The translations under genes were made by a program, and so were the position numbers. A stretch of DNA of 52,934 nucleotides from Elusimicrobia bacterium HGW-Elusimicrobia-3 (GTDB lineage Bacteria; Elusimicrobiota; Elusimicrobia; Elusimicrobiales; UBA9959), in assembly GCA_002840355.1 (NCBI GenBank), contig PHAL01000010.1, positions 1 to 52,934 of the forward strand, in the 5' to 3' direction. Of this stretch, positions 13,327 through 32,512 are shown piece after piece; position 1 is the first letter of the stretch, and the number at the start of each line of letters is the position of its first letter. The notes under the pieces were generated by a model that saw nothing but the letters and a program-made list of their open reading frames with translations, made no database searches and was not told the DNA's origin.

Positions 13327-13378
13327 ATTTGCCGGGGCGTTTTTCCTCGGGCGCGGCAACAGCGGCGGCGCCGTTCTG

Positions 13379-13384
13379 TATAAT
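13379..13384 (+). promoter_or_regulatory. -10 box of the first beta-CASP gene
   Basis: A perfect TATAAT inside TGTATAATATA lies 16 nt before the ATG at 13401. No good -35 box is seen. The same TGTATAATATA context precedes the paralog at 14763. Confidence 0.5.
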
Positions 13385-13400
13385 ATACAGTAGCCAACAT

Positions 13401-14684
13401 ATGAAGATCATCATACACCGAGGGGCCGGCGAGACTGGCGGCAACTGCATAGAGCTGGTTTCCGGCAGATCCAGGATATTGCTGGATTACGGCGCCCCGC
13501 CGTACAGCCCGCAGGGGGAACAGCAGCAGACCACGCTGAACATCCCCGGCCTTTACGACGACAAAGCAGCCGACCCCATACTGGCCATCCTCGTCTCCCA
13601 CACGCACGCGGACCATTACGGCGCGCTGCTGGCGCGGCCGGTAAACCCGCGCATAAAAGTCTTCATGTCGGAGATCATGGAAGACGTCATACGCATAACA
13701 GCCAAAATGCCCAGCGAGCCGCAAAAGCTGACGGCGGACATTCACTATTTCCGCAAAGGCCATAAATTCATAGTGGGCGGCTTCGTTATAACCCCGTTCC
13801 TGATGGACCATACCGCGGCCGAGTCCTTCGCCTTCCTGATAGAAGCCGGCCGCAAGAAAGTTATATATACCGGCGACTACCGCGAGCACGGCATTAAAGC
13901 CGCCGCCTTCAAACAGCTGCTGGCGGCAAAGCCCGGCCCCATAGACGCGCTGATAACCGAAGGCACCCAGGCCGGCATAGAGAAAGGCCCCGCCGAGCCG
14001 GAGATCATGGCCCATATAGAGGCCAACCTCAAAGGCCGCGACGGTCCGCTTTTTGTTATGTGCGCCGGCCAGGATATAGGCCTGCTTACCAGCCTGACCC
14101 AATTGGCCAAGAACACCAGGCGCTTCCTGGTGGTGGACGGCTACGCGGCCCTGCTGCTGGAGAGGTTAAAACACCTGGCAGAAAAGCAGGGCGTGGAGCT
14201 TAAGGCCCCCAGCCTGGAGACCGAGTTCCTGCGCATTGTGCGCAATAAAGCCACGCAGCGCATATTCCAGCTTTCGGAATACATGGAGACCTTCAGGCGC
14301 ATGCGCCCCAGGATGTACGGCTGGGACTGGATCCGGGACAACCTGGACCGCCTTATAATACCAGTGCGCGCCAACGCCCAGCATTGGGTGGGGGAAGAGA
14401 TAAAGGATTTCACCAAAGCCACCCTGATATATTCCGACTGGGAGACATACAGCGAGGAAGAGGGCATGGATGAGACCCTGCAATGGTTCCGCGCCCGCGG
14501 CATGGCCGAAGTGCCCACCCCGTCCTCGCACCACGCCTATTTCTCCACCATCCGCAAACTGGTGGAGAACAAGAAACCGCGCTACATCATCCCCATAAAC
14601 ACAGCGCACCAGGACAAATTCACCCAGACCTTCGGCAAGCGCGCCAAAATACTGAATAACGGCGAAGAATTCACGCTGGATTAG
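13401..14684 (+). CDS. beta-CASP metallo-beta-lactamase (RNase J-like), paralog 1
   Basis: The 427-residue protein is a metallo-beta-lactamase fold hydrolase with a beta-CASP insertion, most like a short RNase J. Visible motifs: GGNCIEL near the start, HTHADH (motif 2), a later DHTAAE histidine (motif 3), YTGDYREHG (motif 4), TEGTQ, then the beta-CASP region and PSSHHAYF. RNase J proteins have SGHA and IPIH in the last motifs; here they read SSHHA and IPIN, so at least one metal or phosphate-contact position differs. The 150-residue C-terminal domain of full-length RNase J is absent. The ATG at 13401 is chosen over an upstream in-frame start at 13329 because the fold begins MKIIIHRGA, as in the neighbour. 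Confidence 0.8.
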   Translation: MKIIIHRGAGETGGNCIELVSGRSRILLDYGAPPYSPQGEQQQTTLNIPGLYDDKAADPILAILVSHTHADHYGALLARPVNPRIKVFMSEIMEDVIRITAKMPSEPQKLTADIHYFRKGHKFIVGGFVITPFLMDHTAAESFAFLIEAGRKKVIYTGDYREHGIKAAAFKQLLAAKPGPIDALITEGTQAGIEKGPAEPEIMAHIEANLKGRDGPLFVMCAGQDIGLLTSLTQLAKNTRRFLVVDGYAALLLERLKHLAEKQGVELKAPSLETEFLRIVRNKATQRIFQLSEYMETFRRMRPRMYGWDWIRDNLDRLIIPVRANAQHWVGEEIKDFTKATLIYSDWETYSEEEGMDETLQWFRARGMAEVPTPSSHHAYFSTIRKLVENKKPRYIIPINTAHQDKFTQTFGKRAKILNNGEEFTLD

Positions 14685-14742: not shown

Positions 14743-14762
14743 ATATTCAAGGGGTGAGCTAT

Positions 14763-16070
14763 ATGAAGATCACAGTGCATCGCGGCGCCGAGGAAGTGGG
14801 CGGCAATACCATAGAGCTGCAGTCGGGCGATTCTCGCATTTTGCTCGACTACGGCGCCCCGCTGCCCAAGATAGACCCCGCCACCAACAAGAACGTCTAC
14901 CCCACGCCCCAGGAGATCATCCTCAATATACCCGGCCTCTACGCCGACGGCACCCGGCCGCTCGACGGTATAGTTATCTCGCATAACCACGGCGACCATT
15001 ACGGCGGCCTTATACCCAAACCCGTGAACCCGGCCGTGCCGGTATGGATGACGGCCGCCATGGAGGAGCTTATACGCATCAGCGGCAAGATGCCGCGCGA
15101 CGCCACCGAACTCCGGGCCACCATACAGCATTACCGCAAGGGTGTTCCGTTCACGGTGGGCGCTTTCAAACTGACCGCCTATCTCATGGACCATTCCGCC
15201 CCCGAGGCTTTCGCCTTCCTGATAGAGGCGGAGGGGAAAAGGATAATCTACACCGGCGATTACCGCAAGCACGGCAACAAGCGCGCGGCCTTTCAGCAGT
15301 TCCTGGAGGCCGACCTGGGCCCCATAGACCTGATGCTTACCGAGGGCACCCAGAGCACCGTGCTCAGCGGCCCCACCCAGCAGCAGGTGCTGCAGGATAT
15401 AGAAAGCCTGGTGAGCGGCCGCGAGGGCGCCGTGTACGTGATGTGCTCCGGCCAGGACCTGGACGTGATAACTAGCCTTTCAGAGATAGCGCAAGCCCAC
15501 GGCCGCTACCTGGCCATAGACGGCTACATAGCCCTGGTGCTGGAAACCCTGAAAGACCAGGTAAAGCGCGACAGCGGCGTGAACTTGCAGATCCCGGGCC
15601 TGGGCGACGAGCATTTAAAGATCATAGACGCGCCCGCCACCGCCAAAATAGCCCGCCTGCCCGAGTACGCCGCCGTCTACGCCCGCATGCGGCCCCACCT
15701 GGTGGACTGGAAGTGGGTGAACGCCAACCACAAGCGGCTCATAGTGGCCGTGCGCACCTATTCGCAGTACTGGCTGGAGAAGTACGTGCGCGACTTCACC
15801 GATGCCGTGCTGGTGTACTCCATGTGGAACGGCTACAAGGTGGAGGAGTCCTTTCACGACACGCTGGAATACTTCAAGACCAAGGGCCTGCCCGAATTCC
15901 CCGTGCACGCCAGCGGCCACGCCTACTTCTCCGCCGTGCGCGAGCTGGTAGCCAGCAAGCAGCCCCGCCACATCATCCCCATCCACACCGAACACCCCGA
16001 AAACTTCACCTGGGCCTTCGGCCGTGACCGCGTACACGTGCTCAAGAACGGGGGGAGCTTCGAATTGTGA
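14763..16070 (+). CDS. beta-CASP metallo-beta-lactamase (RNase J-like), paralog 2
   Basis: The 435-residue tandem paralog of the preceding gene shares its domain order and many blocks (HRGAEEVGGN, LLDYGAP, LNIPGLY, YTGDYRKHG, TEGTQ). Metal motif 2 is HNHGDH. Unlike paralog 1 it keeps the canonical beta-CASP end motifs SGHAYFSA and IPIHTEH, so it is the better candidate for an active nuclease. It also lacks the long RNase J C-terminal domain. The ATG at 14763 is preferred over a GTG at 14754 because AAGGGGTGAG forms a ribosome-binding site for it. Its own -10 box suggests separate expression from paralog 1. Confidence 0.83.
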   Translation: MKITVHRGAEEVGGNTIELQSGDSRILLDYGAPLPKIDPATNKNVYPTPQEIILNIPGLYADGTRPLDGIVISHNHGDHYGGLIPKPVNPAVPVWMTAAMEELIRISGKMPRDATELRATIQHYRKGVPFTVGAFKLTAYLMDHSAPEAFAFLIEAEGKRIIYTGDYRKHGNKRAAFQQFLEADLGPIDLMLTEGTQSTVLSGPTQQQVLQDIESLVSGREGAVYVMCSGQDLDVITSLSEIAQAHGRYLAIDGYIALVLETLKDQVKRDSGVNLQIPGLGDEHLKIIDAPATAKIARLPEYAAVYARMRPHLVDWKWVNANHKRLIVAVRTYSQYWLEKYVRDFTDAVLVYSMWNGYKVEESFHDTLEYFKTKGLPEFPVHASGHAYFSAVRELVASKQPRHIIPIHTEHPENFTWAFGRDRVHVLKNGGSFEL

Positions 16071-16074
16071 TATC

Positions 16075-16152
16075 TACCCCTTTTGGGGTATATATTATCG
16101 CGACTTAAATATATAAAATAAAATCTGGTTAGGCGCGGTACTATACTAGTAC
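16075..16152. promoter_or_regulatory. hairpin and operator-like palindrome before the S24 fusion gene
   Basis: The 154-nt gap holds two dyads. TACCCC-TTTT-GGGGTA (16075-16090) follows the stop codon and may end transcription. GTACTA-TAC-TAGTAC (16138-16152) is a perfect 6+3+6 palindrome that overlaps a -10-like TATACT (16142-16147), which would suit repressor control of the gene starting at 16225. No -35 box is clear. Confidence 0.4.
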
Positions 16153-16224: not shown

Positions 16225-18615
16225 GTGATAGTCTACTCCGGCACCAAAAGCCGCTTCCACCAGGATGTCATGGGCAATGACATCGGCGGGATCATCTTCG
16301 ATACCTTCAAAGCCGTAACCGGCCATAGTACTAAACGCTCCGAAATAGACTCCTGGACCAACTCGTTGCGGTATATGCACGACGTGCTGGAAGACGCCGC
16401 CATTCCCGCCGACGCCGGCGTGGCCATAGAGTACCACATACCGCGCTCGAGCAAGCGCATAGACTTCATTCTCACTGGCACCGACGCCAACAAGACCGAT
16501 ACGGCCATACTGGTAGAGCTAAAGCAGTGGCAGCAGGCTGCCCTCACAACCAAGGACGGCATAGTAACGACCACCTTTAAGGGCGGCCAGCAGGAGACCG
16601 CTCACCCTTCCTACCAGGCCTGGACGTATAAACGCCTGCTCGAGGATTATAACCAGACCGTGCAGGAAAGTAAGATAAACCTCTACCCCTGCGCCTACCT
16701 GCACAATTACGCTCCCGACAACATAATAACCAGTCCGTTCTACGCCCAGTACACCAAAGAGGCCCCTCTATTCCTGAAGCCCGACGCCCTAAAATTGCAG
16801 GAGTTCATCAAGCGCAATATAAAGCATGGCGACAGGGCCGGCCGTGACGGGTTGATGTATCGCATAGACAGCGGTAAGATCAAACCGTCCAAGAACCTGG
16901 CAGATAGCCTGGCCAGCATGCTGCAAGGCAACCAGGAATTTGTGATGGTTGACGACCAGAAGATAGTGTACGAGACCGCCTTGGCCCTGGCCCGTCAGGC
17001 CGCAACAGGGCAAAAGCACGTATTAATAGTGGAAGGCGGCCCCGGCACTGGCAAAAGCGTCGTAGCCATCAATCTACTGGTGGCTCTTACCGGGCAGGAC
17101 ATGGTGGCGCAGTACATAACGCGCAACTCCGCGCCTCGCCTTGTCTATGCGGCCAAATTGGCAGGCACGCTGAGGCGCACGCGCATAGACAACATGTTCC
17201 GCAGTTCCGAAACCTTCCATAAGGCCGAGGCCAACGAGTACGACTGCCTTATTGTGGACGAGGCTCACCGCCTTAAGGAAAAGTCCGGCATATTCAATCA
17301 CCTGGGGGAGAATCAGGTAAAAGAGCTGATCAACGCCGCGAAGCTTTCTGTGTTCTTTGTAGACGAAGACCAGAAGGTAACGCTAAAGGACATTGGCGAC
17401 AAGGACGAGATCCGCCGCTGGGCCAAAAAACACACCGCCAAAGTGATCGAGCTCAAGCTGGAGTCGCAGTTCCGCTGTAACGGCTCGGACGGCTACCTGG
17501 CCTGGCTGGACAACGCGCTGCAGGTGGGAAAAACCGCCAACGACATTCTGGACACCCGCGAATACGACTTTCAGGTGCTCGATGACCCCACCAAGCTGCA
17601 CGAGTTGATCCGCCAGAAGAACCTGCCCAATAACAAGGCCCGCGTGGTGGCCGGCTACTGCTGGAAGTGGCTAAGCAAGACCAACCCCGCGCTTAAAGAC
17701 ATTGTGATAGGCGGCTACCAGGCCGCCTGGAACCTTAACGACGACGGCCAGACCTGGATAATACAGCCCGATTCCGTAAGCGAGGTGGGCTGCATACACA
17801 CCTGCCAGGGCCTGGAGCTGGACTATGTGGGTGTAATAGTGGGCCCCGACCTAATAGTGCGCGACGGCGAGGTTGTAACTTCGCCGGCCGCGCGCGCCAG
17901 CACGGACAAATCCGTGCACGGGTGGAAGGCTTTATATAAGGCCCACCCCGAAGCCGCCAGCAAGCGCCTGGACCTGCTGATAAAGAACACCTACCGCACC
18001 CTTATGACCCGCGGCCAGAAGGGCTGCTACGTGTATTTCACCGACAAAGAGACCGCCGAATATTTTAAAACGCTGCTCCAGCCCGCCACCGCCGGGGCAC
18101 CCGCCGGCCTTGCCCGGCAGTTGAAGAAGGCACTCGACATTCTGCCGGACATTGCCGGGGCGCTCCGGTGGAAGGAGTATCTGCCGGTCTATAGCCTGGA
18201 GGCCGCCTGCGGCGCTTTCGGCCGCGGCATGGCCGTTGAGCCGCAGGGTTGGGCCAAGTGCCCGCCCGGCCTTAAACCCGACCGCAACATGTTCGTGGCC
18301 CGCGTGAGCGGCCGCTCCATGGAGCCCCGCCTGCACCACGGCGACTACTGCGTTTTCCGCGCCAACGTGGCCGGCACCCGCCAGAACAAAATAGTGCTGG
18401 TGCAGCACAGCTCCATAGCCGACCCCGACACCGGCGGCAGCTACACCGTAAAGAAATACACCAGCAAGAAGAAATACGCCGAGGACGGGACTTGGGAGCA
18501 TGAAGAGATAATCTTGAAACCGCTGAACCCGGAGTACGTCGATATAGTGATCCCGAACGCGGAAAACGAAGAGTTTATGGTAGTGGCAGAAGTGGTGGGA
18601 AGTATTATTAATTGA
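16225..18615 (+). CDS. PD-(D/E)XK nuclease + DUF2075 helicase + S24 (LexA/UmuD-type) autoprotease fusion
   Basis: The 796-residue protein has three parts. Residues 1-110 form a PD-(D/E)XK-type domain with E69, D80 and E98-L-K100. Residues 240-620 are a DUF2075/Schlafen-type P-loop helicase with Walker A GGPGTGKS (271-278) and Walker B VDEAHR (344-349). Residues 650-796 are a complete S24 peptidase: putative cleavage bond C662-G663, nucleophile S698 in GRSMEP, LHHGD, and general-base lysine K743 in YTVKK. The bond-to-serine distance matches LexA and UmuD. No HTH is present. The GTG start gives MIVYSGTKS, the usual beginning of this family. It opens a defence island. RecA-stimulated self-cleavage releasing or switching the enzyme is an inference. 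Confidence 0.85.
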   Translation: MIVYSGTKSRFHQDVMGNDIGGIIFDTFKAVTGHSTKRSEIDSWTNSLRYMHDVLEDAAIPADAGVAIEYHIPRSSKRIDFILTGTDANKTDTAILVELKQWQQAALTTKDGIVTTTFKGGQQETAHPSYQAWTYKRLLEDYNQTVQESKINLYPCAYLHNYAPDNIITSPFYAQYTKEAPLFLKPDALKLQEFIKRNIKHGDRAGRDGLMYRIDSGKIKPSKNLADSLASMLQGNQEFVMVDDQKIVYETALALARQAATGQKHVLIVEGGPGTGKSVVAINLLVALTGQDMVAQYITRNSAPRLVYAAKLAGTLRRTRIDNMFRSSETFHKAEANEYDCLIVDEAHRLKEKSGIFNHLGENQVKELINAAKLSVFFVDEDQKVTLKDIGDKDEIRRWAKKHTAKVIELKLESQFRCNGSDGYLAWLDNALQVGKTANDILDTREYDFQVLDDPTKLHELIRQKNLPNNKARVVAGYCWKWLSKTNPALKDIVIGGYQAAWNLNDDGQTWIIQPDSVSEVGCIHTCQGLELDYVGVIVGPDLIVRDGEVVTSPAARASTDKSVHGWKALYKAHPEAASKRLDLLIKNTYRTLMTRGQKGCYVYFTDKETAEYFKTLLQPATAGAPAGLARQLKKALDILPDIAGALRWKEYLPVYSLEAACGAFGRGMAVEPQGWAKCPPGLKPDRNMFVARVSGRSMEPRLHHGDYCVFRANVAGTRQNKIVLVQHSSIADPDTGGSYTVKKYTSKKKYAEDGTWEHEEIILKPLNPEYVDIVIPNAENEEFMVVAEVVGSIIN

Positions 18616-18639
18616 TCTATCACTCAGCGAATCTTAATT

Positions 18640-19443
18640 ATGGTCGCAACGAATAGCGAAGCAAACAAACCAATCAAGAGCATTACTATCCCAATTGCCC
18701 ACGGTAAATCCTTTACGATTTTTTTTACTAGGGATGGGATAGGAATATTAGGTTCTGATGCTAAGCCTAGGTCCACAAAAAAACATTACATGCTTCTTTT
18801 TGACAGACTGGGGATTAGCGCCCATGAAACTCAGGAAGGCAAAACTAAAAAGCATAAGCATTTGGGACGAGTGAACTTTATAGATAATCTTCAAAAAGTG
18901 TCCCGTTTTATTGAAGACAGAATTGGTTCCCAAGAATTTTTAACGCAAATGCGCAATCCAATTTTGACTAACCGGTTTTTTCTTCCGCTACCTGACACGC
19001 AAAATGCGAAGGATTGCTTAAAGGTTCAAGGGAGAAGGGCTGAGGTGGAACCCAATAGCTTTAAACCACAATTATTAAATGCGAATCAGCTTTATGAGAG
19101 CGGGAAGCACCTTTTTCTTGTATTTACAAAAGCTAGAACACGTTACCATCTGAATGGGTTTCTCGTATTTGTAAATCCAGAGGCTATGTTCTTTCTGGGA
19201 ACAGACGTGATTTTAGAAGTCTTTGCTTTGGCAGGTTTTAACTGTAAGGAATTTAAAAAGGATATGTATATTCCATGTAGCCCGGAATTTGGGGGCAGAA
19301 TTGTTTCAAAAAGGGAACTAGAGATTTCAGCCAAAACAAGTCTCGCAGCTCTTTCTCCTGCAATTATTAAGCTCAGTGAAGCGCTGAGTAAAACTATTAA
19401 CGGTCTTGGATCTACGCCATCAGCCACGAAAGAATTAAAATGA
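18640..19443 (+). CDS. unknown protein, first gene of the A+T-rich defence insert
   Basis: I do not recognise this 267-residue protein. It is basic, without signal peptide or membrane helix, and shows no nucleotide-binding or nuclease motif that I can see. The base composition falls sharply in G+C compared with the upstream gene, and ATT/TTT/AAA codons appear, which marks it as transferred DNA. It starts 24 nt after the S24-fusion gene with no evident ribosome-binding site. It lies upstream of the large STAND NTPase in the same orientation, so it may be an accessory, sensor or regulator of that system; this is inferred from position only. Confidence 0.6.
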   Translation: MVATNSEANKPIKSITIPIAHGKSFTIFFTRDGIGILGSDAKPRSTKKHYMLLFDRLGISAHETQEGKTKKHKHLGRVNFIDNLQKVSRFIEDRIGSQEFLTQMRNPILTNRFFLPLPDTQNAKDCLKVQGRRAEVEPNSFKPQLLNANQLYESGKHLFLVFTKARTRYHLNGFLVFVNPEAMFFLGTDVILEVFALAGFNCKEFKKDMYIPCSPEFGGRIVSKRELEISAKTSLAALSPAIIKLSEALSKTINGLGSTPSATKELK

Positions 19444-19476
19444 ATTTGGATCAATAAATTGGGTGGAGAAAAATGT

Positions 19477-19674
19477 ATGTCAAACAACAGATTCAGCCCG
19501 GAGAAGTTTCATCAGTTCCGAATTGTGGACGAAAACAATCAGGTAGTTGGTCACGTTCGAGTGAAACCAAGTGGAATTCATTGGGCGCCCAAGAATGCAA
19601 AGATATGGTATGCAGTATCAATTGAAAAGTTTGCGCTGTACATGGAAGGAAATGGCAGTCGGAAAACAAAATAG
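19477..19674 (+). CDS. small protein of unknown function
   Basis: The 65-residue protein has a compact fold-like pattern: a beta-strand segment FRIVDENNQVVGHVRVKPSG, an aromatic WAPKNAKIWYAVS, then helix IEKFALYMEG and a basic tail. The ATG at 19477 is preferred over a TTG at 19459 because GGTGGAG lies at the right distance. It sits 18 nt before the STAND NTPase gene. Small genes in this place in defence operons can be DNA-binding adaptors, immunity factors or regulators, but nothing in the sequence says which. Confidence 0.6.
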   Translation: MSNNRFSPEKFHQFRIVDENNQVVGHVRVKPSGIHWAPKNAKIWYAVSIEKFALYMEGNGSRKTK

Positions 19675-19692
19675 TGTTTTATACTGCTTCAT

Positions 19693-22600
19693 ATGAGTCC
19701 GATTAATCGCACGGCCCCAATTAGACGAGGATTTGCCACCCAAGATCAGTGGGCCTTTCGGATTTGCCTGGATATTTTGAAAAACCCTGCAGATTATGAC
19801 TGGATGCAATGTGAGACTGCTCCCGACGAGGTATCTGGAGCGTTCTTTCTTGACGATATACTTGTTAAACATAAAGACGATACTTATACGTTTTTACAAG
19901 TAAAACACCGGCAACATGCAACTTCGCCTTGGACTTGGGACGAACTTCTTGCTCAAGCGGAATCAGCACGCGGGGGATTGAAGACCTCGTTAATTCAGAA
20001 ATGGCATCGGTCCATATCTAAACCAGAAATCAAGCAAAAGATTCGCCTAGGCAAACTGCTTACAAATGGCCTCGCTAGCCCAGAACTTAATAGTTGCTTA
20101 ACCGATAACAAAATAGATGTGGCTCTTCTTGAGTCAACTAACCCAGATATTTTTGCAAAGGTTGTACAGCAACTGGGCTCAATCAAAGAATTGAAAGAGT
20201 TTGCTGAATCTTTTGCTTTCTGCTTCTCGCAACCTGATTTTGCCGAAATGGACGTGGTTACGCGCCAAGGGTTTCTAAAATACGGGGCAACTAAAGCTGG
20301 GCTCGATAATTTATTGATCGCAATCCAGAAGGAGTGTCTTAAACAAGAAACTGCCCCTTGGACCATTCAAACCATTTTCGAAAACTGTGAATTTTCTACC
20401 CCCAGACATTTGAACGAAAATTTCTCAATTCCAGCGGATTTTCAAATATTTGACATTGCAAAGCATTCGGAAACCCTGAAAATGTTTAAGGACATCGCAG
20501 GAGGAATTCAGGTATTAGTGGGGAATCCGGGGTCGGGAAAAAGCACCTATCTCGCTTGGCTCTATAAACATCTAACTGGGAATGGTTCAGTCGTTTTGCA
20601 TCATCATTATCATATTAACCCGTCCGATCCAATTCCACTCGCGCGCATCCAAGCCCAGAGGGTAATAGAAGCGCTTAAGGCACAATGCAAAGACCACAGC
20701 GAGCTATTAGGGTCGCTTGTTCAACAAAATGCAGAGAATGTTTCGCTTCGTGATTTTCTAAACAAGATCGCTACTGAATTGTTTACCCAAGGGAAAACAG
20801 CAATCTTAATAATCGACGGATTAGACCATGCCTTGCGACAAGATGCCGTTCGGGAGCTAAAGGAGTTGTTGCTTGAGGCATGTGTTCCACAGAATGGACT
20901 ATGGATTTTATTAGGAACACAGGTTAGCGCAAGAACATATTTGCCCCAGATAGTCTTCGACAAATGTCCAGAAACCAACTGGATAGAAATAGAAGGGCTA
21001 ACATCTTCTGCTGTTTCATCAGTAGTACGAAAAAATGTGCTTCAGTTGAAATTGCCAGACAACTCGATGCAGTTGAATGACCTTTGTGATGAGATTTATA
21101 AACTCTGTAGCGGTAACCCTCTTCATCTCAGATATATTTTAAATACGCTTCGGTTGAAAAAGACCTCCTCAATAGTTACAGATTATGATTGTCGAGGCTT
21201 GTTGCCATATTCGGATGATATCGAACAATATTATCAAGCTCTATGGCGTAGTTTGCCGAACTTTACAAAATCTTTGGCGTTAGTATTTGTTTCGGCTTCT
21301 TTTGAACCGACTCAAGAGCAATTATGCCAGATTGCTACTGCTTTAGGCCTTCGCGTAAACGAAATTACAGAAGCTTTGCAGAATATCTTACATTTACTTA
21401 AAAATCAACATGGGCATTTGTCTATCTTTCATAATAGCTTTAGGGAATTCCTAAACAGCACGATAGAACTTGCACAGCAACAAAATGGATTAAAAACTGC
21501 GCTGCGTGATTGGATTAGGGGGAGCAAATACCAGGATTTGAAATGGGCGCATACTCGAATACTCGAATATGAACTTGGGAATCCAGAACCTCTACTTGAA
21601 ATAGATCGCAAATGGGTAATTGAAGCTGTTAGTTTTCCGCGCCCCCAACATCTTATAGATGAACAACTCGCGGCGGGAACGGAAGCGGCATTTAAGACCG
21701 GAAGATGGGGGAAATGCCTAGAGCTTTCAACATTAAGGGAATATTTGACAAACACAATAAGTTATCACGACGGATATTTTATCCCAGCTTGGATTTTAGC
21801 CTTCGAACTCTCGCCTGAGAAGAACCTAAACATCCAGTTTAACACTCTTGCCCATGAGCAACTAGTGGCTATTAGTAGAGAGATGCAACGATTAGGGAGA
21901 TTCTTTGAAATCGAGCAGGATGTGTTTTCTGCCTTAAACGATAAACATCGCACGCAAAACGTTAGAGCCAACGGGGATATTGGCGGTAAGACCCCAGAAA
22001 TCGCTCTGTCAACAATAGAAATATTGACGTTGAATGATGACTGGGACGTTCCAAATGTTCTTGATTATATCCGCCAGTATTCGGGAACTGGATGGGCGCC
22101 GATCCTAATTGGCCATTTAGCCAGAAGGACAATAGAAACTTTTAAATTTGCGAAATTAGACGATATTGAGAAAGGACTAATTGGCGATTCTGAGCGGTAT
22201 GAATTCTATTTTGCCTGTGCGAAAGCTGGACTAGAATCCAAGTCTGCAAGATTGCTAGAGCTCTTAAAAAATATAGATTCGGCTAAGCTGCCCCCCTTAG
22301 GGATGCTCTTTTGTGAGTTAATGGGGATATCAAGCAGTCATCTCCCAGAACTAGCCCCATATCTCTCTCTACCGAATACTATTCCAGAGTATGATACAGG
22401 GCACAGAGAGCATCGAGCCAATGTTTTTTACGAAGGTTTTCTTACAGGCATTTTGTGTGGACTTAAGGATAATATCTCTATAATCCAAGAATGGGAAAGG
22501 GGATCAGACTCAACGTGGGCACATCTCATCTATTCTCGTATTCTAAAGGCCGGATTTGCCACCGGAGAAAAGCTAAAGAACGGGGCCAAATTAGATTTGC

Positions 22601-25596
22601 TGATACCACTATCATTTTTGGATGACATCGGGGCCTTAAAATGGCCGCAAGATAGAGATCGGCTTGAGTATCAACACTCATTAAGATTAAGCCTCTCAAA
22701 GATTTGTACGACTTTAATAAGTTTAATCCGCTTTCAGGGTTTTGCAGTGCAGTTATCTTTAGAAGAAATCACTGCGCTAAAGGTAAGCGATCATTTTGGA
22801 TCTTATAATTTTATTGAGTTTCTCGATAGTCTTTGCACGAATATCCTTACTCAGGAACAATTGCGTTCCTTGGCGGATGAAGAGCTGGACAATATTCAAA
22901 AGTCTAGCGACACGTTCCCTGACCGCTCGAGCCGCTCATTAAAGATAGCAAGAATAGCTAAGATCCACGCAGATATCACGATTGCAACTACATTCTTATG
23001 GAAGAGTTTTAATTATCTTCTGGGTTATGGTTCTCATAAAGACCCTTTCTTGGATCGGGTCATGGAGAGCATTAAGGTCGCGCATACTATTTCACCAGAG
23101 AGGACAAAATCGCATCTAGCACAGTTGGGCCCCATGGCTGCATCTATTCGGGACTACACCGACGGCGATGACACGAGATATTTCCCCGAATATCTGGCCG
23201 AGATTTTGGTGAGTACGCTCCCGGAATATCTTCCGGGATACTTTGTGGCCCAAGCCCAAAAGGAAAATTATTTTCTCGCAGAAGATATATTCGAGTCTGT
23301 AATCAAGGCGTTGGATCTTTCATCCCCATTTTCGTTTGCACTTGCAACAACGGCTATCGATAGTGGTTCTTTCCTAACTCTGAAAAAACGAGCCGTGTCT
23401 GATCGGTTAGCGGCAAATGCCGTTAACTGTATTGAAAATTACTTCGGCCCAATGCGGTTTGATGTCGATAAACCTAGCCCTAGCCCTTTTGCCGATGAGC
23501 ATAAAGGTATAGATTTCTTAGCAATCCCTGTTTCGAATATTTCCGACAAGCTTGATGCGGTTAATAATACATGGAATAAATCCCGGTTCCTTGCGAAATG
23601 GGCAAATGTTCATAGAGAGAGCAATTCAGAACATACTCCAGAGATTTTCGAGTATTTGTCAAAGTATATAGAGCAAGTCGGGGAAAGCCAAGCCGATGCG
23701 GAAATCTTGGATGTTGCATACAAGTTGGCGTTCCCACATAACAAGGAGAAGGCTTTTCAATATGTTGCGTGGGCACAGGCTAATAGTTCTGGATGGGCTG
23801 AACATTTTTCAAGTGCGGAAGATGCTCGGCGGCGATGGTGCTTTATTAGGGCAAACTTTCCAGATCGGTATTCGGAGTTCTTTCAATTAAGCATTGAGCG
23901 AACAGGGCTTCGCTACGGCCGACGGTCAACATACTTTGTGCCCATACCAAGAGGGATAGAATTCCTTAATTTATTCGCACAAAAAGAAAAGATTGATGAC
24001 ATTATTTCAGCTTCAATTGAAGTTGCCAAAACTCTAATAATAGACGATACTCGACAAAAAACTCCTTGGATTGATGGGCCGCTGCTTGATAGTTTGGATT
24101 TACTGATTCAGCGGCTGTCCTGGCCAGGTTCACTTGTAAGAGAGCGTGCAGCTACGGCTCTTGCCAGTTTATTACATGATTCTGAGACTAGCGCAGAAAC
24201 AAAGAAACGTCTCCTAAATTGGATCTCTGTACAGGAACTTGAATCAATGGTCGTTTACGGGATACTCCCATTCGCTAAGGCAGCTTCAACTTCAACTCCT
24301 GGGTTCTCCATATTTACTGTCACCGAAATTTATGAAAGTATAACGACAACTTCGATCGCGGTAGATGTTCTAATGCAGTATATCGCAAATCACCTAAATG
24401 AGGCCCATTCACCTAAAACGCATAAAAATATATTGTTTGAAGCCCCAGTCGGATATCAGGCAGATGAATTCTTTCTTAAGTACATAAAAAACTTTTTACC
24501 GCCATCCTATCTTTTAGATGGTCAAGAGATTTCGGATAATTCTGGCAGGCCGTTTATTAATGATTGGTGCTTTACCGCAAATTCAATTCAGACCCAACTT
24601 GGGATCGAAAATGACGCTTCTGTTTTGGATTTCATGGGACACCGTGAAGACCACCTTTTAATTGCAGTGTCCACTAAACAAAGTGAAATATATCGCTCTG
24701 CTTTTCTTAGATGTCTTAATGGCTATTATCGCGCTGGGGGAATGTCACGGGATTTTTATCTCGATTATGCACTTGCCACCATACCAATCGACCTTTCATT
24801 GTGGCAAATATTGCCAACACGTAAGCCAAAATGGTGGCCAGGGAACAGTCCCATTCAAAACAGCACAGATAAAGGTGGACTGCCCAATATCTCATATGAT
24901 TTAGAGATACAAAATATCATCAAAACTAGAGATATTCGAGTGTTAGCGTTAGATGGTCGCATCTCGGCCCAGCAGGATTCCAAAATTTCTTCCGGAATAT
25001 CTCTTATTGGATTTGGGTATAAAATTGGAGGCCCCAATCTTCCATCTGCAGAAGAGATATGGAAATGTGTTGGAAATACACGTTGTGAGCTTACCCCGCC
25101 ATCAGCGATGAAAACGCCAATCGCTCACCTCGAATCTTCTTCTGACTATTTAGCAGTCGGAACCCCCAAAATCAGGATTAAAGATGCTGAAATTGCGAAA
25201 TTAGTGGGGGGCTATGGTTGGTTCACTGTCCCAACATGGCAATGGTTTCGTATGCGAAATGCTGCGCCCTTTGGATTAACTAAAGATATATTCCCGTCAG
25301 TTAATCTCTCAATTACCCCAACTGAGCTTGCCTTTTTAGAAAATGGAATAAGAGTCGGAGGTAGTTCTGACTGGACAGATGGGGTTCTTGAGCGAGAAGA
25401 TGCGGACATCCCTCCTCAGTATGGGCACTATATAGAAGTGCGAAACGATTTTCTAAGCTCTACCCTCAAAAACATGGGGCTCCGATTAGGCTTTGTCTTA
25501 AAGCTAAGTGTTAGTGTAAAAGAAGATGGATATGGGAAAAAAGCCAAAAGATTTAACAATTATAAGGTATTCAGTTTTTCCCCAATAATAACATAA
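19693..25596 (+). CDS. Avs-like STAND NTPase with N-terminal Cap4/DUF4297-like nuclease
   Basis: This 1967-residue protein has effector-NTPase-sensor architecture. The N-terminus (about 10-110) has the pattern of a DUF4297/Cap4 PD-(D/E)XK nuclease: E41, D54-D55 and the variant active-site Q69-V-K71. The STAND ATPase follows with Walker A GNPGSGKST (277-285), Walker B ILIIDGLDH (371-379) and a GNPLHL motif (474-479) like the GxP of NB-ARC/NACHT proteins. The remaining roughly 1350 residues, helical with no catalytic motif visible, are the expected place for target recognition. Avs and related STAND proteins bind phage proteins and then cut DNA. The gene is A+T-rich and flanked by two orphan genes upstream and a HEPN-like gene downstream. 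No ribosome-binding site is obvious. The exact Avs subtype is not clear. Confidence 0.85.
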   Translation: MSPINRTAPIRRGFATQDQWAFRICLDILKNPADYDWMQCETAPDEVSGAFFLDDILVKHKDDTYTFLQVKHRQHATSPWTWDELLAQAESARGGLKTSLIQKWHRSISKPEIKQKIRLGKLLTNGLASPELNSCLTDNKIDVALLESTNPDIFAKVVQQLGSIKELKEFAESFAFCFSQPDFAEMDVVTRQGFLKYGATKAGLDNLLIAIQKECLKQETAPWTIQTIFENCEFSTPRHLNENFSIPADFQIFDIAKHSETLKMFKDIAGGIQVLVGNPGSGKSTYLAWLYKHLTGNGSVVLHHHYHINPSDPIPLARIQAQRVIEALKAQCKDHSELLGSLVQQNAENVSLRDFLNKIATELFTQGKTAILIIDGLDHALRQDAVRELKELLLEACVPQNGLWILLGTQVSARTYLPQIVFDKCPETNWIEIEGLTSSAVSSVVRKNVLQLKLPDNSMQLNDLCDEIYKLCSGNPLHLRYILNTLRLKKTSSIVTDYDCRGLLPYSDDIEQYYQALWRSLPNFTKSLALVFVSASFEPTQEQLCQIATALGLRVNEITEALQNILHLLKNQHGHLSIFHNSFREFLNSTIELAQQQNGLKTALRDWIRGSKYQDLKWAHTRILEYELGNPEPLLEIDRKWVIEAVSFPRPQHLIDEQLAAGTEAAFKTGRWGKCLELSTLREYLTNTISYHDGYFIPAWILAFELSPEKNLNIQFNTLAHEQLVAISREMQRLGRFFEIEQDVFSALNDKHRTQNVRANGDIGGKTPEIALSTIEILTLNDDWDVPNVLDYIRQYSGTGWAPILIGHLARRTIETFKFAKLDDIEKGLIGDSERYEFYFACAKAGLESKSARLLELLKNIDSAKLPPLGMLFCELMGISSSHLPELAPYLSLPNTIPEYDTGHREHRANVFYEGFLTGILCGLKDNISIIQEWERGSDSTWAHLIYSRILKAGFATGEKLKNGAKLDLLIPLSFLDDIGALKWPQDRDRLEYQHSLRLSLSKICTTLISLIRFQGFAVQLSLEEITALKVSDHFGSYNFIEFLDSLCTNILTQEQLRSLADEELDNIQKSSDTFPDRSSRSLKIARIAKIHADITIATTFLWKSFNYLLGYGSHKDPFLDRVMESIKVAHTISPERTKSHLAQLGPMAASIRDYTDGDDTRYFPEYLAEILVSTLPEYLPGYFVAQAQKENYFLAEDIFESVIKALDLSSPFSFALATTAIDSGSFLTLKKRAVSDRLAANAVNCIENYFGPMRFDVDKPSPSPFADEHKGIDFLAIPVSNISDKLDAVNNTWNKSRFLAKWANVHRESNSEHTPEIFEYLSKYIEQVGESQADAEILDVAYKLAFPHNKEKAFQYVAWAQANSSGWAEHFSSAEDARRRWCFIRANFPDRYSEFFQLSIERTGLRYGRRSTYFVPIPRGIEFLNLFAQKEKIDDIISASIEVAKTLIIDDTRQKTPWIDGPLLDSLDLLIQRLSWPGSLVRERAATALASLLHDSETSAETKKRLLNWISVQELESMVVYGILPFAKAASTSTPGFSIFTVTEIYESITTTSIAVDVLMQYIANHLNEAHSPKTHKNILFEAPVGYQADEFFLKYIKNFLPPSYLLDGQEISDNSGRPFINDWCFTANSIQTQLGIENDASVLDFMGHREDHLLIAVSTKQSEIYRSAFLRCLNGYYRAGGMSRDFYLDYALATIPIDLSLWQILPTRKPKWWPGNSPIQNSTDKGGLPNISYDLEIQNIIKTRDIRVLALDGRISAQQDSKISSGISLIGFGYKIGGPNLPSAEEIWKCVGNTRCELTPPSAMKTPIAHLESSSDYLAVGTPKIRIKDAEIAKLVGGYGWFTVPTWQWFRMRNAAPFGLTKDIFPSVNLSITPTELAFLENGIRVGGSSDWTDGVLEREDADIPPQYGHYIEVRNDFLSSTLKNMGLRLGFVLKLSVSVKEDGYGKKAKRFNNYKVFSFSPIIT

Positions 25597-25656
25597 CAAA
25601 ATCTAAAACCTTGCAAAATTACGAAGTGACAAAATGAACTGAGCGAGAGTTAACTC

Positions 25657-26445
25657 ATGAGCTGGAAAATTCAAAAGCGTATGGATGTAGGAACAAGCAA
25701 CCCAATCGTTGCCCGAATAATCATCGGCTTGTCAGAAGTCGCGGATTTCACAACCCTCGCGAAGGAAACCAAGAATAGATTGCAGGAGAACTGCCATGAA
25801 ATAGCAGAGTTTTTAATACATGCCGATAAAGCTGCTAAGCCTTTGATCGCTGAAATAAACAGCATTGTTGACGACTTAAATGTAAAAGGCGTACAAACAC
25901 AAGCCGATGGGCGATGCATCAATCTACCGCACACTTCTAAAATTGAAAATTCACGCCTATTTTTAAAATATGCTAAGCAGGCACTATCTGGCATTGCGCA
26001 CAATTTTCAGATCATATTTAACAAACCATATCAGGGACCACATTTTCACAAAATCAAAACTGAGTTCAACACAATATTTGGACAAGAAGACATTCTTACA
26101 CGCCTTATTACCGAAGACGAACCTTGGATAAAGCAATTAATTGAGTTGCGGAATGAAGACGAGCATCCCAATAGCGGAAAACCTTTTTTCAGCGACTTTG
26201 ACATAAACCGAGCCGCTAATGGATACGGCATAACACTACCGCTCTTCTTCAACGGCACCGCAATCAATAACATCCTTGAAGTTTTTAATTACAACCTTCT
26301 AACTTTTTCTGAAGAGGCCACTGTTCTTGCTTTGGAGAAATATTTTATGCCCAACATAACCTTGTTGGAAATACCAGAAAAAGACCGCAATCCAGATATT
26401 CCAAAACGCTACACCTTTGGCTTAAAGACAAAACCAATAGGGTGA
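25657..26445 (+). CDS. HEPN-like protein, putative ribonuclease/effector
   Basis: The 262-residue, mostly helical protein contains ELRNEDEHP, in which R165-N166-x3-H170 matches the RX4-6H motif (with the usual polar residue after Arg) of HEPN RNases. No other domain is recognised. It follows the STAND nuclease gene by 60 nt on the same strand and has the same A+T-rich composition, so both probably arrived together. HEPN proteins in defence loci cut RNA in abortive infection or act as toxins. The call rests on one short motif and on context; a non-catalytic HEPN or a chance match remains possible. Confidence 0.5.
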   Translation: MSWKIQKRMDVGTSNPIVARIIIGLSEVADFTTLAKETKNRLQENCHEIAEFLIHADKAAKPLIAEINSIVDDLNVKGVQTQADGRCINLPHTSKIENSRLFLKYAKQALSGIAHNFQIIFNKPYQGPHFHKIKTEFNTIFGQEDILTRLITEDEPWIKQLIELRNEDEHPNSGKPFFSDFDINRAANGYGITLPLFFNGTAINNILEVFNYNLLTFSEEATVLALEKYFMPNITLLEIPEKDRNPDIPKRYTFGLKTKPIG

Positions 26446-26484
26446 ATCAATTTAAAGATGTTCTAACTTTCTGATTATCACACA

Positions 26485-28353
26485 ATGGCTATCGTAATTC
26501 CGGATTCGGCTTTGGGGGACAGGGCTTACGGCATTAATGCCGGGGAGAAGTATCTCCTTAAGAAGCTCAGGGACGCGCTGCCGGCCGATTGCCTTGTCTG
26601 GCACAACGTCGAGCTGCCCAATCATTATCAGCCGGACATAGTGGTATATCTGCCGCGCTTCGGCATTCTCATCTTCGAGGTTAAGGATTGGGAGAAAGAG
26701 ACGCTTGCCCGGCTGGGCAAGGATTTCTGGGAGATAAACGCTGACGGCCGCCGCAAGCAGGTGCGGTCCCCGCTGGAGCAGGTGCGCAATTACTATTACG
26801 AACTGGCCCGGCTCTTTGAAAGCAAAAGAGTGCTGCTGCGGGGGGAAGGCAACTACAAAGGCTCCTTCAAGCTGCCCATAGCCTACGCGGCGGCTTTTAC
26901 CAGGCTCCGCCGTAAAGACCTGCCAGAGGAAGCCCTGCGCGAGCTGGACCCACGCAAATTCCTATTCCGGGACGACCTTGAGCCGCTCGGCAATACCGTA
27001 ACGGGGCCGGAGCTGGATAAATTCATGCGCTCGCTTTTCAGCCAGGCTTTCTGGCCTAACGAGCCGCTTTCTGCCGAAGAGCTGGACGCGCTGCGCGGCG
27101 CGCTGTACCCGGAGATCACTCTGACCAAAGAGTGCAAGACCGGGCCCAGGCGCATAATCCTGGACATAACCCAGGAGCAGATGGCCAAGAAGGCGGACTC
27201 CGGGCACACCATAGTGCGCGGTATCGCAGGCAGCGGCAAATCGCTGGTGCTGTGCGCCAAGGCGAAGATAATCGCCGAGGCCCACCCGGACTGGAAGACG
27301 CTGGTGATGTGCTTTAACAACAGCCTTAAAAGCCAGTTGGACTTTTACCTCACACACCTTAACGACATCTTCATCACCAAGCCGGCTAAGCCCAATTGGG
27401 AGGTGGGCGCCTTTTACGGATTCCTTTTCAAACTGGCCAAGGAGCTGGGATACAAGGACCTGCCGCACGACCTGTTCCAGCATGAAGGCGACGGCAACGA
27501 CGAGGCCTGCAGCGCGGTGGCAGGGGAGCACCTGCAGAGGATGGCGGCCCTGCCCGGCGCACCCAGGTACGACGCGCTGCTTATAGACGAGAGCCAGGAC
27601 TTCCATCACTCCTGGCTTAAGGGGCTAATGGGGTTCCTTAAATCTGAGACTAACTTCATTATTCTCGCCGAGGACCCCAACCAGAAGATATACAAACGCA
27701 ACTTCACGTACAAGGACGCAGGCATAAACGCAGTGGGGCGCGTGCGAAAACTGCCGGTGGCTTACCGCAGCACCAAAGAGATAATCTTTCCCGCGACGAT
27801 GCTGGTACAGAACTCCAACCCCGACGAGTTCTTCAAGCAGTACGTGGGCGAGGATAACTTTACGAGTCTCTTCAAAGAAGCAGGGGGCAATCCCCCGCAG
27901 GTTGTGTTGGTCCCCTGCGAGTTTGCCGGAGAATACCTGCTGGAGAATATCTGCAACGACATAAAGTCCGGGCTGGCATATTCAGACATCGCGGTGCTTT
28001 GCCCGAACAGGGAGCAGACCGGGAAGTTTCACGGTTACCTGGACCGGCACAAGATCCCGGCGTACTGGCTGGTCAAGGACGCCGAGGCGAAGAACAATTA
28101 CGACGCCGCCCTGGACAAGGTGCTTATAAGCACCGTGCACTCCGCCAAGGGTCTGGAGTTCGAGAAGGTTTACTTCATGAACCTGGAAATGTTCCCACTG
28201 GAGTATCTCAACGAGCGCGAGAACGCGAGCATGGTATACGTGGCCATGACCCGCGCCAAGAAACACCTCACCATAGTAAGCGGCAGCACCACCCCGACTT
28301 TCTCCAGGATCCGCGAAACAGTGCAGAAATACTGCACAGATGATGGAGGATAA
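26485..28353 (+). CDS. NERD nuclease-domain UvrD/Rep-like superfamily 1 helicase
   Basis: The 622-residue protein begins with a NERD (nuclease-related) domain: G20-E21 in NAGEKYLLKKL, D51 in QPDIVVY, and E65-V-K67 in FEVKDW. An SF1 helicase core follows: Walker A GIAGSGKS (246-253), Walker B LLIDESQD (365-372), STVHSAKGLEFEKV and VAMTRAKKHL, the UvrD motifs V and VI region. G+C content and ATA-rich isoleucine use return to the host style, so it was not part of the A+T-rich insert before it. NERD-helicases occur in defence loci (for example Nhi-like systems) and on plasmids. A strong terminator ends it. Confidence 0.88.
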   Translation: MAIVIPDSALGDRAYGINAGEKYLLKKLRDALPADCLVWHNVELPNHYQPDIVVYLPRFGILIFEVKDWEKETLARLGKDFWEINADGRRKQVRSPLEQVRNYYYELARLFESKRVLLRGEGNYKGSFKLPIAYAAAFTRLRRKDLPEEALRELDPRKFLFRDDLEPLGNTVTGPELDKFMRSLFSQAFWPNEPLSAEELDALRGALYPEITLTKECKTGPRRIILDITQEQMAKKADSGHTIVRGIAGSGKSLVLCAKAKIIAEAHPDWKTLVMCFNNSLKSQLDFYLTHLNDIFITKPAKPNWEVGAFYGFLFKLAKELGYKDLPHDLFQHEGDGNDEACSAVAGEHLQRMAALPGAPRYDALLIDESQDFHHSWLKGLMGFLKSETNFIILAEDPNQKIYKRNFTYKDAGINAVGRVRKLPVAYRSTKEIIFPATMLVQNSNPDEFFKQYVGEDNFTSLFKEAGGNPPQVVLVPCEFAGEYLLENICNDIKSGLAYSDIAVLCPNREQTGKFHGYLDRHKIPAYWLVKDAEAKNNYDAALDKVLISTVHSAKGLEFEKVYFMNLEMFPLEYLNERENASMVYVAMTRAKKHLTIVSGSTTPTFSRIRETVQKYCTDDGG

Positions 28354-28378
28354 GAGAAGAAGACCTGCTTTGTTCAAT

Positions 28379-28411
28379 AAAAGGCCGGAGGCTGAGACCT
28401 CCGGCCTTTTT
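28379..28411 (+). terminator. intrinsic terminator after the NERD-helicase gene
   Basis: A 13-bp stem AAAAGGCCGGAGG/CCTCCGGCCTTTT with a 6-nt loop (28392-28397) ends in TTTTT. The A-run on the left also makes it usable from the opposite strand. It separates the helicase from the restriction cassette. Confidence 0.92.
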
Positions 28412-28468
28412 GTTGTCTTTTATGTTACTCGGATTCTGTAGATCCATAGTCAACATATGCGATAGATT

Positions 28469-28478
28469 TGCTTAAGCA
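28469..28478. promoter_or_regulatory. operator-like palindrome before the HTH regulator gene
   Basis: TGCTTAAGCA is a perfect 10-bp palindrome whose end is 19 nt before the ATG of the XRE-family regulator at 28498. Controller proteins of restriction systems bind such dyads at their own promoter. A CATATG lies slightly upstream (28454-28459). Confidence 0.45.
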
Positions 28479-28497
28479 GATACCTGGGGACATTTAA

Positions 28498-28704
28498 ATG
28501 AAAATACTTAAAGATTTTGGTAAAAAGGTGCAGCTTTATCGAAAAAAGAAGGGGCTTTCGCAAGAAGAGCTCTCGTTTGTGGCCGATCTGCACAGAACCT
28601 ATATTAGCCAAATAGAAGCCGGCAATCGCAATGTCGCGCTAAAAAACATTGTCAAAATTGCAAAAGCCTTAGGAGTTAGCCCTAAAGATCTCTTTGACAA
28701 GTGA
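28498..28704 (+). CDS. XRE-family HTH regulator, restriction controller (C protein)-like
   Basis: The 68-residue protein is a single Cro/C1-type helix-turn-helix domain: GKKVQLYRKKKGLSQEEL, then the recognition region LHRTYISQIEAGNRN and IVKIAKALGV. Size and sequence resemble controller proteins of restriction-modification loci. It is the first gene of an A+T-rich cassette; the next gene starts four bases after its stop, so it is co-transcribed with the nuclease genes. A perfect palindrome just upstream is a candidate binding site for autoregulation. Confidence 0.88.
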   Translation: MKILKDFGKKVQLYRKKKGLSQEELSFVADLHRTYISQIEAGNRNVALKNIVKIAKALGVSPKDLFDK

Positions 28705-28708
28705 TGCC

Positions 28709-29731
28709 ATGAAGCCACTAATCAAATACCAGGGATATTCCAGAAAGGAAGTCCACGATATCTTTGAGCCTCACACACGGTTTGTTCCTAGAGGTGGACC
28801 ATGGGGAAACTGGGGCGCAATTAAGATAGATAAGCGACCCGGTGATTATGTCTTCCTCGCCACTTTGGGGACCACACAGTCTGGGCATAAATTCGATGAG
28901 GGGATAACTGAGGATGGGGTTTTGACTTGGCAATCGCAGCCGGGACAGGCGCTAAAGGAAGCGAGAATTAGGGAATGGATTCGGCATGATGAGTCTAAAA
29001 ACTCAATTTACTTCTTTCTTCGAATTAATAAGAGAAAGAACTCTCAATATACATACTTGGGTTTGCTGAAATACATCTCGCATGACACAAATAGAGAAAA
29101 GCCTGTTTATTTCCACTGGCAGATACTTGATTGGGACATAACACAACGGGATTTAGACAGAACTGGCATAAAGCTAAGTAAGCCCACATCTGAGCCAAGA
29201 GATATCAAGCTTGATTCGCTAGTTGCTGGCGAGCCACCAGCCAGGTATGAAGCGAAAGCCCAGGGCACAGAAGTGTTTCGTTCAAAGAAAAAGCCAGATT
29301 ACGCCAAGAGAGATGAGAAAAATAAAAAGATTGGCGATGCTGGTGAACTACTGGTCCTAAAATCAGAGATAGAGCTTCTAAAAAAAGAAGGGCTCCTCGA
29401 ATTGGCCGAGAAAGTTCGGCATACATCTAAACTCATCGGAGACTCTGCCGGTTACGATATCGAGTCATACAACAAAGATGGGGGAATCAAATACATTGAA
29501 GTAAAGACGACCCAAGGGGGGAACGATACTGATTTCTTTATGAGTAGCAATGAGGTTGCATTCAGTGAGTCCCACCCAGACAATTACTTCATATACCGGG
29601 TTTATGACTTTTCTGAAAAGGAAAACTCGGCCAAGTTCTTTGTTATAAATGGGGACCTTAAGAAAAGCCTTACTCTTACCCCTGTCCAATACCGGCTTAG
29701 TTGCCGAAGTCTAAAAGAGCAGGCCCAGTAA
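28709..29731 (+). CDS. DUF3427 + DUF3883 protein, predicted restriction endonuclease
   Basis: The 340-residue protein has two regions. The first (about 1-140; YSRKEVHDIF, RFVPRGGPWGNWG, FLATLGTTQSGHKFDE) resembles the DUF3427 domain found at the end of certain helicases. The second (about 205-320) matches DUF3883, a PD-(D/E)XK nuclease fold: E213 in GDAGE, D250 in DSAGYDIESY, E264-V-K266 in IEVKTT. The start at 28709 is chosen because it lies just past the regulator stop; an earlier TTG overlaps that gene. It is followed after one base by the SRA-like/HNH gene. A nuclease acting on modified or foreign DNA is the likely role. Confidence 0.8.
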   Translation: MKPLIKYQGYSRKEVHDIFEPHTRFVPRGGPWGNWGAIKIDKRPGDYVFLATLGTTQSGHKFDEGITEDGVLTWQSQPGQALKEARIREWIRHDESKNSIYFFLRINKRKNSQYTYLGLLKYISHDTNREKPVYFHWQILDWDITQRDLDRTGIKLSKPTSEPRDIKLDSLVAGEPPARYEAKAQGTEVFRSKKKPDYAKRDEKNKKIGDAGELLVLKSEIELLKKEGLLELAEKVRHTSKLIGDSAGYDIESYNKDGGIKYIEVKTTQGGNDTDFFMSSNEVAFSESHPDNYFIYRVYDFSEKENSAKFFVINGDLKKSLTLTPVQYRLSCRSLKEQAQ

Positions 29732-29732
29732 A

Positions 29733-30428: not shown

Positions 30429-30490
30429 GATCGTCTGCGTCAGTTATATTCAGTAGTTAAAAAGACACACAGATTACCCAAGGAGCATTT

Positions 30491-32269: not shown

Positions 32270-32308
32270 GGTATTCTTATTTCTTAATCTTGTAGTGGAG
32301 GAAAGTGT

Positions 32309-32458
32309 ATGATAAACAAAAAAACAGTCAGTGCGATGAAGAAAGTAGACAAGGCATTGGCAACAATCGAGGAAGTTATAAAAGAGCTTAAGGAAGCAAG
32401 AAAGATATTTCGTAGAAGCATTGGCCAGCAAGGGCGGCAGATGCACAAGGGTAGATAG
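32309..32458 (+). CDS. small 49-residue coiled-coil protein
   Basis: A short reading frame begins with ATG at 32309, seven bases after a perfect GGAGG ribosome-binding site (32297-32301). The peptide is a single amphipathic basic helix: MKKVDKALATIEEV followed by IKELKEARKIFRR and a polar tail. It follows the DUF262 gene by 39 nt and shares its A+T-rich composition. Function is unknown; candidates are an inhibitor, a regulator or a structural partner of the nuclease upstream. The strong ribosome-binding site is the main evidence that it is real. Confidence 0.6.
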   Translation: MINKKTVSAMKKVDKALATIEEVIKELKEARKIFRRSIGQQGRQMHKGR

Positions 32459-32512
32459 TCAGCCTTATTTATTCGATGAGGTGGCGGGGACCGATGCAAC
32501 TGCGCCGGCTAG

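Follow-up and report, generated by a model that had tools for sequence, protein, structure and literature searches.

A LexA-type S24 module carried by restriction and defence enzymes as a candidate SOS-linked off-switch

The gene described here lies in a 52,934-nucleotide stretch of DNA from Elusimicrobia bacterium HGW-Elusimicrobia-3 (contig PHAL01000010.1; hereafter the window), and by sequence its product is a predicted PD-(D/E)xK nuclease and Schlafen-group-3 helicase with a C-terminal LexA/UmuD-type S24 domain (Table 1). For this protein a link to the SOS response at the protein level is the best reading of its sequence, because the autoprotease module is a genuine part of the protein and its two catalytic residues do not vary. 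The S24 domain also belongs to a wider family, which, judging from a tree of its copies, has been re-grafted repeatedly onto different enzyme classes. We propose, as a tentative reading that stands somewhat below an even chance, that one mobile LexA-type self-cleaving module has been grafted time and again, even into the middle of a polypeptide, onto bacterial restriction enzymes and DNA-degrading defence enzymes of almost all classes, where it would act as a transcription-independent SOS off-switch wired to RecA filaments on single-stranded DNA (RecA-ssDNA).

The nuclease-helicase and its S24 tail

A sequence-only reading of the gene had described an S24 autoprotease fused to a PD-(D/E)xK nuclease and a DUF2075 helicase, with no helix-turn-helix (HTH), and this architecture is borne out. 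The helicase domain matches SLFN-g3_helicase (PF09848, formerly DUF2075; E 6.7e-104), has the Walker motifs of this family, and its Foldseek matches are RecD2, SLFN11 and Dna2. The predicted nuclease region matches no Pfam family and contains the E...D...ExK core of PD-(D/E)xK enzymes; the PADLOC model PDC-S41 matches amino acids (aa) 28–302 (2.5e-19). Both the nuclease motif (E69...R78-x-D80...E98-L-K100...Q131) and the helicase motifs (GGPGTGKS and D345-E346-x-H348) are unchanged in 26 full-length relatives with 33–86% identity. In the tail, Peptidase_S24 is matched at aa 683–791 (E 7.2e-10, exceeding the cut-off), the NCBIfam S24 match is the UmuD-like PRK10276 (1.7e-5), and no HTH family is matched in Pfam. 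The predicted scissile bond, Ser and Lys were each verified by codon where they had first been placed, and the 36 residues counted from C662 to S698 equal the distance between C24 and S60 of UmuD. The protein thereby possesses the S24 domain and fold, the Ser-Lys dyad and the Cys-Gly bond of an S24/LexA-type autoprotease. An identity with UmuD, the Pol V subunit, is ruled out, as the protein is a 796-aa fusion with MBL-fold and STAND-like genes as neighbours and not a short stand-alone protein beside umuC.

AlphaFold models were obtained for the tail (71 sequences; pLDDT 88) and for the whole protein (pLDDT 84, pTM 0.58). The solved folds nearest to the tail model are LexA and lambda CI, followed by UmuD, and include the RecA-bound structures 8gms, 8trg, 8gmu and 8gmt; against LexA C-terminal domains the model reaches VIA Z-scores of 12–13. 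Sequence searches of the PDB gave chance matches to nanobodies alone for the full protein and none for a tail profile, so the fold match rests on the predicted model.

Table 1. Features of the fusion gene and its upstream region; positions are those of the window
Feature	Position	Strand	Evidence
Nuclease-helicase-S24 fusion gene, 796 aa, GTG start	16225..18615	+	Open ORF; close full-length relatives 81–86% identical
PD-(D/E)xK nuclease region, N-terminal, aa ~1–200 (E69, D80, E98, K100, Q131)	16225..16824	+	Motif invariant in 26 relatives; PADLOC PDC-S41
Schlafen-group-3/DUF2075 helicase domain, aa 264–607 (Walker A 271–278, DE-x-H 345–348)	17014..18045	+	Pfam, alignment of relatives, Foldseek
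Linker, pLDDT <50 at aa 621–634; tail-less relatives stop near here	18046..18177	+	
LexA/UmuD-type S24 module, aa 652–796	18178..18612	+	Pfam; AF2 model matching LexA C-terminal domains
Predicted scissile bond C662-G663 (SLEAAC/GAFG)	18208..18213	+	C662 codon TGC at 18208–18210, G663 codon at 18211–18213
Catalytic Ser698 (GRSMEP)	18316..18318	+	Codon TCC; Ser in 116/116 module copies
Catalytic Lys743 (YTVKKY)	18451..18453	+	Codon AAG; Lys in 116/116 module copies
Palindrome GTACTATACTAGTAC (GTACTA-TAC-TAGTAC) overlapping a -10-like TATACT	16138..16152	.	Conserved in two orthologues, with GGTTAGGC upstream

A mobile module on restriction and defence enzymes

A scan of 84,980 species genomes gave 392 relatives, the best 80 of which were read. 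The invariance of Ser and Lys in all 116 non-redundant copies is partly by design, as a locus was admitted when it matched either of two patterns, one with the Ser and one with the Lys; the bond lay outside both patterns, and free of this bias are the other residue, the bond and the copies found by profile. The sequence-only reading had named homologues lacking the bond or the Ser/Lys pair as its refutation, and for the bond this applies in part. The Ser/Lys pair and a P1 Ala or Cys hold in 116 of 116 copies and the Cys-Gly bond is kept in all close relatives of the window protein, but P1' is Gly in only 64 copies, with Thr in 43 and Ser in 9. On the tail tree, the change from Gly to Thr or Ser requires only 3 steps, and most such copies fall in one clade that spans SLFN, HsdR, ISP and Type III Res enzymes. 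Among the copies, 107 have Ala at P3 and 115 have Ala, Val or Ile at P2, so that the N-terminal product of cleavage would mostly end in -AAA, -AAC or -AVA.

The module is ~145–160 aa long, and what its partner enzymes have in common is that they act on DNA. In the window's phylum, a tail profile finds it on HsdR-like, Type III Res-like and Schlafen-type proteins. Partners recognised by Pfam and PADLOC on representatives are HsdR (T1RH-like_C, HSDR_N, PADLOC REase_I), Type ISP enzymes (Mrr_cat_2, ResIII, Eco57I, Type_ISP_C), Type III Res, IIG/DrmMI-like methylases and DruE-like and Type IV-like helicases, and weaker copies are carried by an AlwI-type restriction enzyme, an HsdS specificity subunit and TnsA-like/Type III Res C-terminal pieces. 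Assigned by best BLAST match, the 116 copies comprise SLFN (33), HsdR (32), Type III Res (11), ISP (5), Res-like (5), DruE (4), IIG (3), SNF2/DEAD (3) and small Acidobacteriota proteins (7), the remainder being unassigned or fragments. In the Acidobacteriota loci L108, L109, L128, L133, L135, L140 and L143 the tail follows a short N-terminal region, with DUF3037 in two; they form one clade and possibly do not function in defence.

Tail-less SLFN-g3/DUF2075 nuclease-helicases, often accompanied by a MazG-like gene, correspond to the same enzyme with 49–57% identity and are found in Hymenobacter, Methanosphaera, Halalkalicoccus and a Microcystis phage. They contain no S24 domain and are complete at 618–629 aa; the tail is therefore an add-on to a finished enzyme. 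The two archaeal organisms, Methanosphaera and Halalkalicoccus, are not known to have a LexA-type SOS response. A tree of 79 tails requires 19 changes of partner class, compared with a possible minimum of 8 and a shuffled mean of 40.8. Forcing the HsdR tails into a single group costs 220 log-likelihood units (p-AU 1.6e-47), and one origin per enzyme class is thereby rejected, as shown for HsdR. Tails have therefore moved between enzyme classes several times, albeit not freely.

The module is C-terminal in 103 of 118 copies. One Schekmanbacteria bin has four copies, two of which are internal in R subunits: in L215 the module separates the HSDR_N nuclease from the SWI2/SNF2 motor, and L216 is an EcoEI-type R subunit with the module within its HSDR_N domain. 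The AAA-G bond is kept in both. A module that retains its bond wherever it is placed is easiest understood as something that cuts, and a cut at these internal sites would sever the enzyme.

A proposed built-in off-switch and its alternatives

It seems to us nearly an even proposition that the module is a fuse, built into the enzyme, whose RecA-triggered self-cleavage turns restriction off during DNA damage; from the domains, residues, module mobility and positions described above we infer the cleavage, its dependence on RecA, the degradation and the off direction. In undamaged cells, the ATP-driven nuclease-helicase would guard against foreign DNA as an anti-phage enzyme. When the cell's own DNA is damaged, RecA-ssDNA filaments would form, and the S24 domain would dock onto them as LexA does and cut its own chain between C662 and G663. 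The tail would thus be separated, leaving an enzyme with the new C-terminus ...SLEAAC (...AAA or ...AVA in relatives), which resembles the Val-Ala-Ala ClpXP signal of cleaved LexA and may act as a Clp degron. Repair of the chromosome would then proceed with the nuclease degraded or inactive, which amounts to restriction alleviation, and the same module would do likewise for many unrelated restriction and defence enzymes. Recognition of the Val-Ala-Ala end of cleaved LexA by ClpXP is described in a passage of PMC12273997 that cites Neher et al. 2003. Cells with damaged DNA are known to suppress Type I restriction; in Types IA and IB the proteolysis is carried out by ClpXP (PMC3874165).

The sequence-only reading had envisaged an effector switched on or off by RecA-ssDNA. 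The fused module and its invariant dyad support this in part, as far as a protein-level link to SOS. The wider pattern, in which the module has moved onto restriction enzymes of almost all kinds, speaks for an off-switch in the sense of restriction alleviation rather than for the trigger of an effector. As an on-switch, the tail would hold the enzyme inactive until RecA-triggered cleavage, on ssDNA arising from phage replication or damage, releases the active nuclease. The conversion of UmuD to UmuD' follows the same logic, and loss of the tail from its prevailing C-terminal position would leave the enzymatic chain whole. However, methylation-guarded enzymes must act when DNA enters, before damage signals arise, and their activation after damage would cut the host; the internal modules of L215 and L216 would sever their enzymes, and the HsdS and methylase fusions are implausible as damage-triggered weapons. 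As switching on at damage would be harmful for methylation-guarded enzymes and switching off is a known need, the off-switch is favoured, and we regard the on-switch as decidedly improbable.

Several observations weigh against a RecA-triggered fuse. In both AlphaFold models aa 658–665/667, the bond included, are helical, whereas the cleavage stretch is an extended loop in solved LexA and CI structures; the models therefore do not depict the bound, cut-ready state and neither prove nor exclude cleavage. P1' is Thr or Ser in 52 of 116 copies (45%), unlike the Ala-Gly or Cys-Gly bond usual for S24 autoproteases (PMC8565304). An archaeal bin, G357 (L080), carries the tail with only a weak RecA-family match, a doubtful case as it is possibly contamination, and plasmid-induced restriction alleviation in E. 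coli needs no LexA cleavage (PMC11109961). The helical bond and the missing P1' Gly would suit a domain that need not cut but serves for docking or dimerisation, recruiting DNA enzymes to RecA filaments or joining them to one another in the manner of LexA and UmuD'; LexA-type domains are dimerisation domains. Yet Ser and Lys are invariant even where the bond is A-T or A-S, and P1 is always Ala or Cys, a constraint expected for catalysis and not for docking, and we consider this alternative unlikely. Self-cleavage could also be independent of RecA, for instance constitutive or a response to stress or DNA engagement, and mainly limit the dose of the enzyme. The archaeal bin without a clear RecA would agree with this; on the other hand, at least 26 of 28 tail-bearing genomes have recA, as do most bacteria, and the nearest structures are the RecA-responsive LexA, CI and UmuD, which makes a non-RecA cause rather improbable. 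Finally, nearly all copies derive from metagenome assemblies, in which S24 genes might have been joined to their neighbours by mis-assembly or chance. Identical junctions in independent genomes and phyla, the invariant catalytic residues, four full-length relatives with 81–86% identity in other genomes and the same pair in a complete Halomonas replicon, where a frameshift separates the two parts, leave this only a very slight probability.

Distribution and genomic setting

The fuse proposed above would draw on RecA, which scores above the cut-off of its model in 25 of the 28 genomes with a tail and is split into two pieces in one further genome; LexA is above the cut-off in 20 of 29. In the window's own genome, recA adjoins a LexA-like gene on the opposite strand with the bond MANC-GPA (C-G). 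The module is found in 52 of 384 Omnitrophota genomes and, counting the stronger matches, in ~16 of 341 genomes of the window's phylum. Carriage by phages or plasmids is rejected: a pattern scan of IMG/VR gave no relative, none was found among 50,697 phage records, and 1 of 72,556 plasmid records has the module. This absence from phage and near-absence from plasmids fits a host-protecting device. The sole plasmid-collection case, L033 (Halomonas sp. PA16-9), encodes helicase and tail in different frames, either a split pair or an error in the record.

The operator-like palindrome said to overlap the -10 region of the fusion gene is present, and two close orthologues have GGTTAGGC at the same place, followed 8–10 bases on by CTATACTAGTA, with a perfect 12-bp TATACTAGTATA. 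Its 6-bp arms alone appear in 11% of shuffles, and local conservation is the extent of the support for an operator role. The palindrome was not found in the recA/lexA region of the window's own genome, so 'operator' stays a putative label; with just two near-matches genome-wide, an SOS-box reading was rejected.

Schlafen-g3 nuclease-helicases, tailed or not, are usually directly preceded by a gene for a 110–150 aa MazG-like nucleotide pyrophosphohydrolase (PF12643; L071, L072, L074-L077, L079, L082, L083, L095, L102, L110, L115, L118, L126 and L142), which suggests that the two genes form a defence unit. In the window, L064 and L065 the MazG-like gene is missing, and these loci instead have the conserved promoter in common. 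Adjacent RNase J-like MBL-fold paralogues (13329–14684 and 14754–16070) lie just upstream of the fusion gene, which itself begins a defence-rich stretch with a Cap4-nuclease/NACHT protein and NERD-UvrD, NOV_C/DUF3427, HNH and GmrSD genes. The last four are within a 14-kb low-GC region (18600–32500; 0.41–0.53 vs 0.60–0.69) that immediately follows the fusion gene and probably represents an acquired defence island. The Cap4-type nuclease and NACHT/AAA NTPase belong to a 1967-aa protein with Avs1b-like similarity (19693–25596), beside which the small orphan ORFs at 18640–19443 and 19459–19674 matched no family. In an orthologue of the window gene (L025 10188–12608, G027), a hairpin-rich repeat of ~147–183 bp is inserted four times with the frame intact; G026 and the window's own genome (L027, L153) hold related copies of the repeat, and it looks like a small interspersed palindromic element.

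Relation to known systems and implications

The module shares its fold, Ser-Lys dyad and P1 Ala/Cys with LexA, UmuD and lambda CI, and the window protein shares the Cys-Gly bond and residue spacing of UmuD. In contrast to these proteins, the module has no DNA-binding or polymerase role and is fused to restriction and defence enzymes, its P1' often deviates and it has signature residues of its own (W676, G717, R719, T741 and Y745). The alleviation of EcoKI restriction by ClpXP is likewise a damage-linked proteolytic shut-off of a helicase-nuclease (PMC3874165, PMC4231737), as we infer for the module; however, the protease of EcoKI is external and its degron was not found, whereas the predicted cutter of the module is part of the enzyme. 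Against the PADLOC systems Nhi, AbiO and PDC-S41, the nuclease and helicase parts match weakly to moderately, but these matches are partial and always leave out the S24 tail. Both S24 autoproteases and restriction enzymes are familiar, and no description of the two combined as a mobile module was found in the literature searched, which was mostly non-subscription; domain databases may list such architectures. No paper on PDC-S41 was found, term searches of the reviews PMC12707154 and PMC10952713 returned neither S24 nor LexA, and PMC3874165 mentions LexA solely in a reference title.

It has long been asked how bacteria with damaged DNA avoid being killed by their own restriction and defence nucleases; for EcoKI in E. 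coli the answer is the external ClpXP. If the off-switch proposed here is true, a self-cleaving module that can be carried from enzyme to enzyme would solve this self-killing problem in general. The SOS response would then regulate immune proteins directly, rather than their genes, and the module would offer a ready-made damage-sensitive off-switch.
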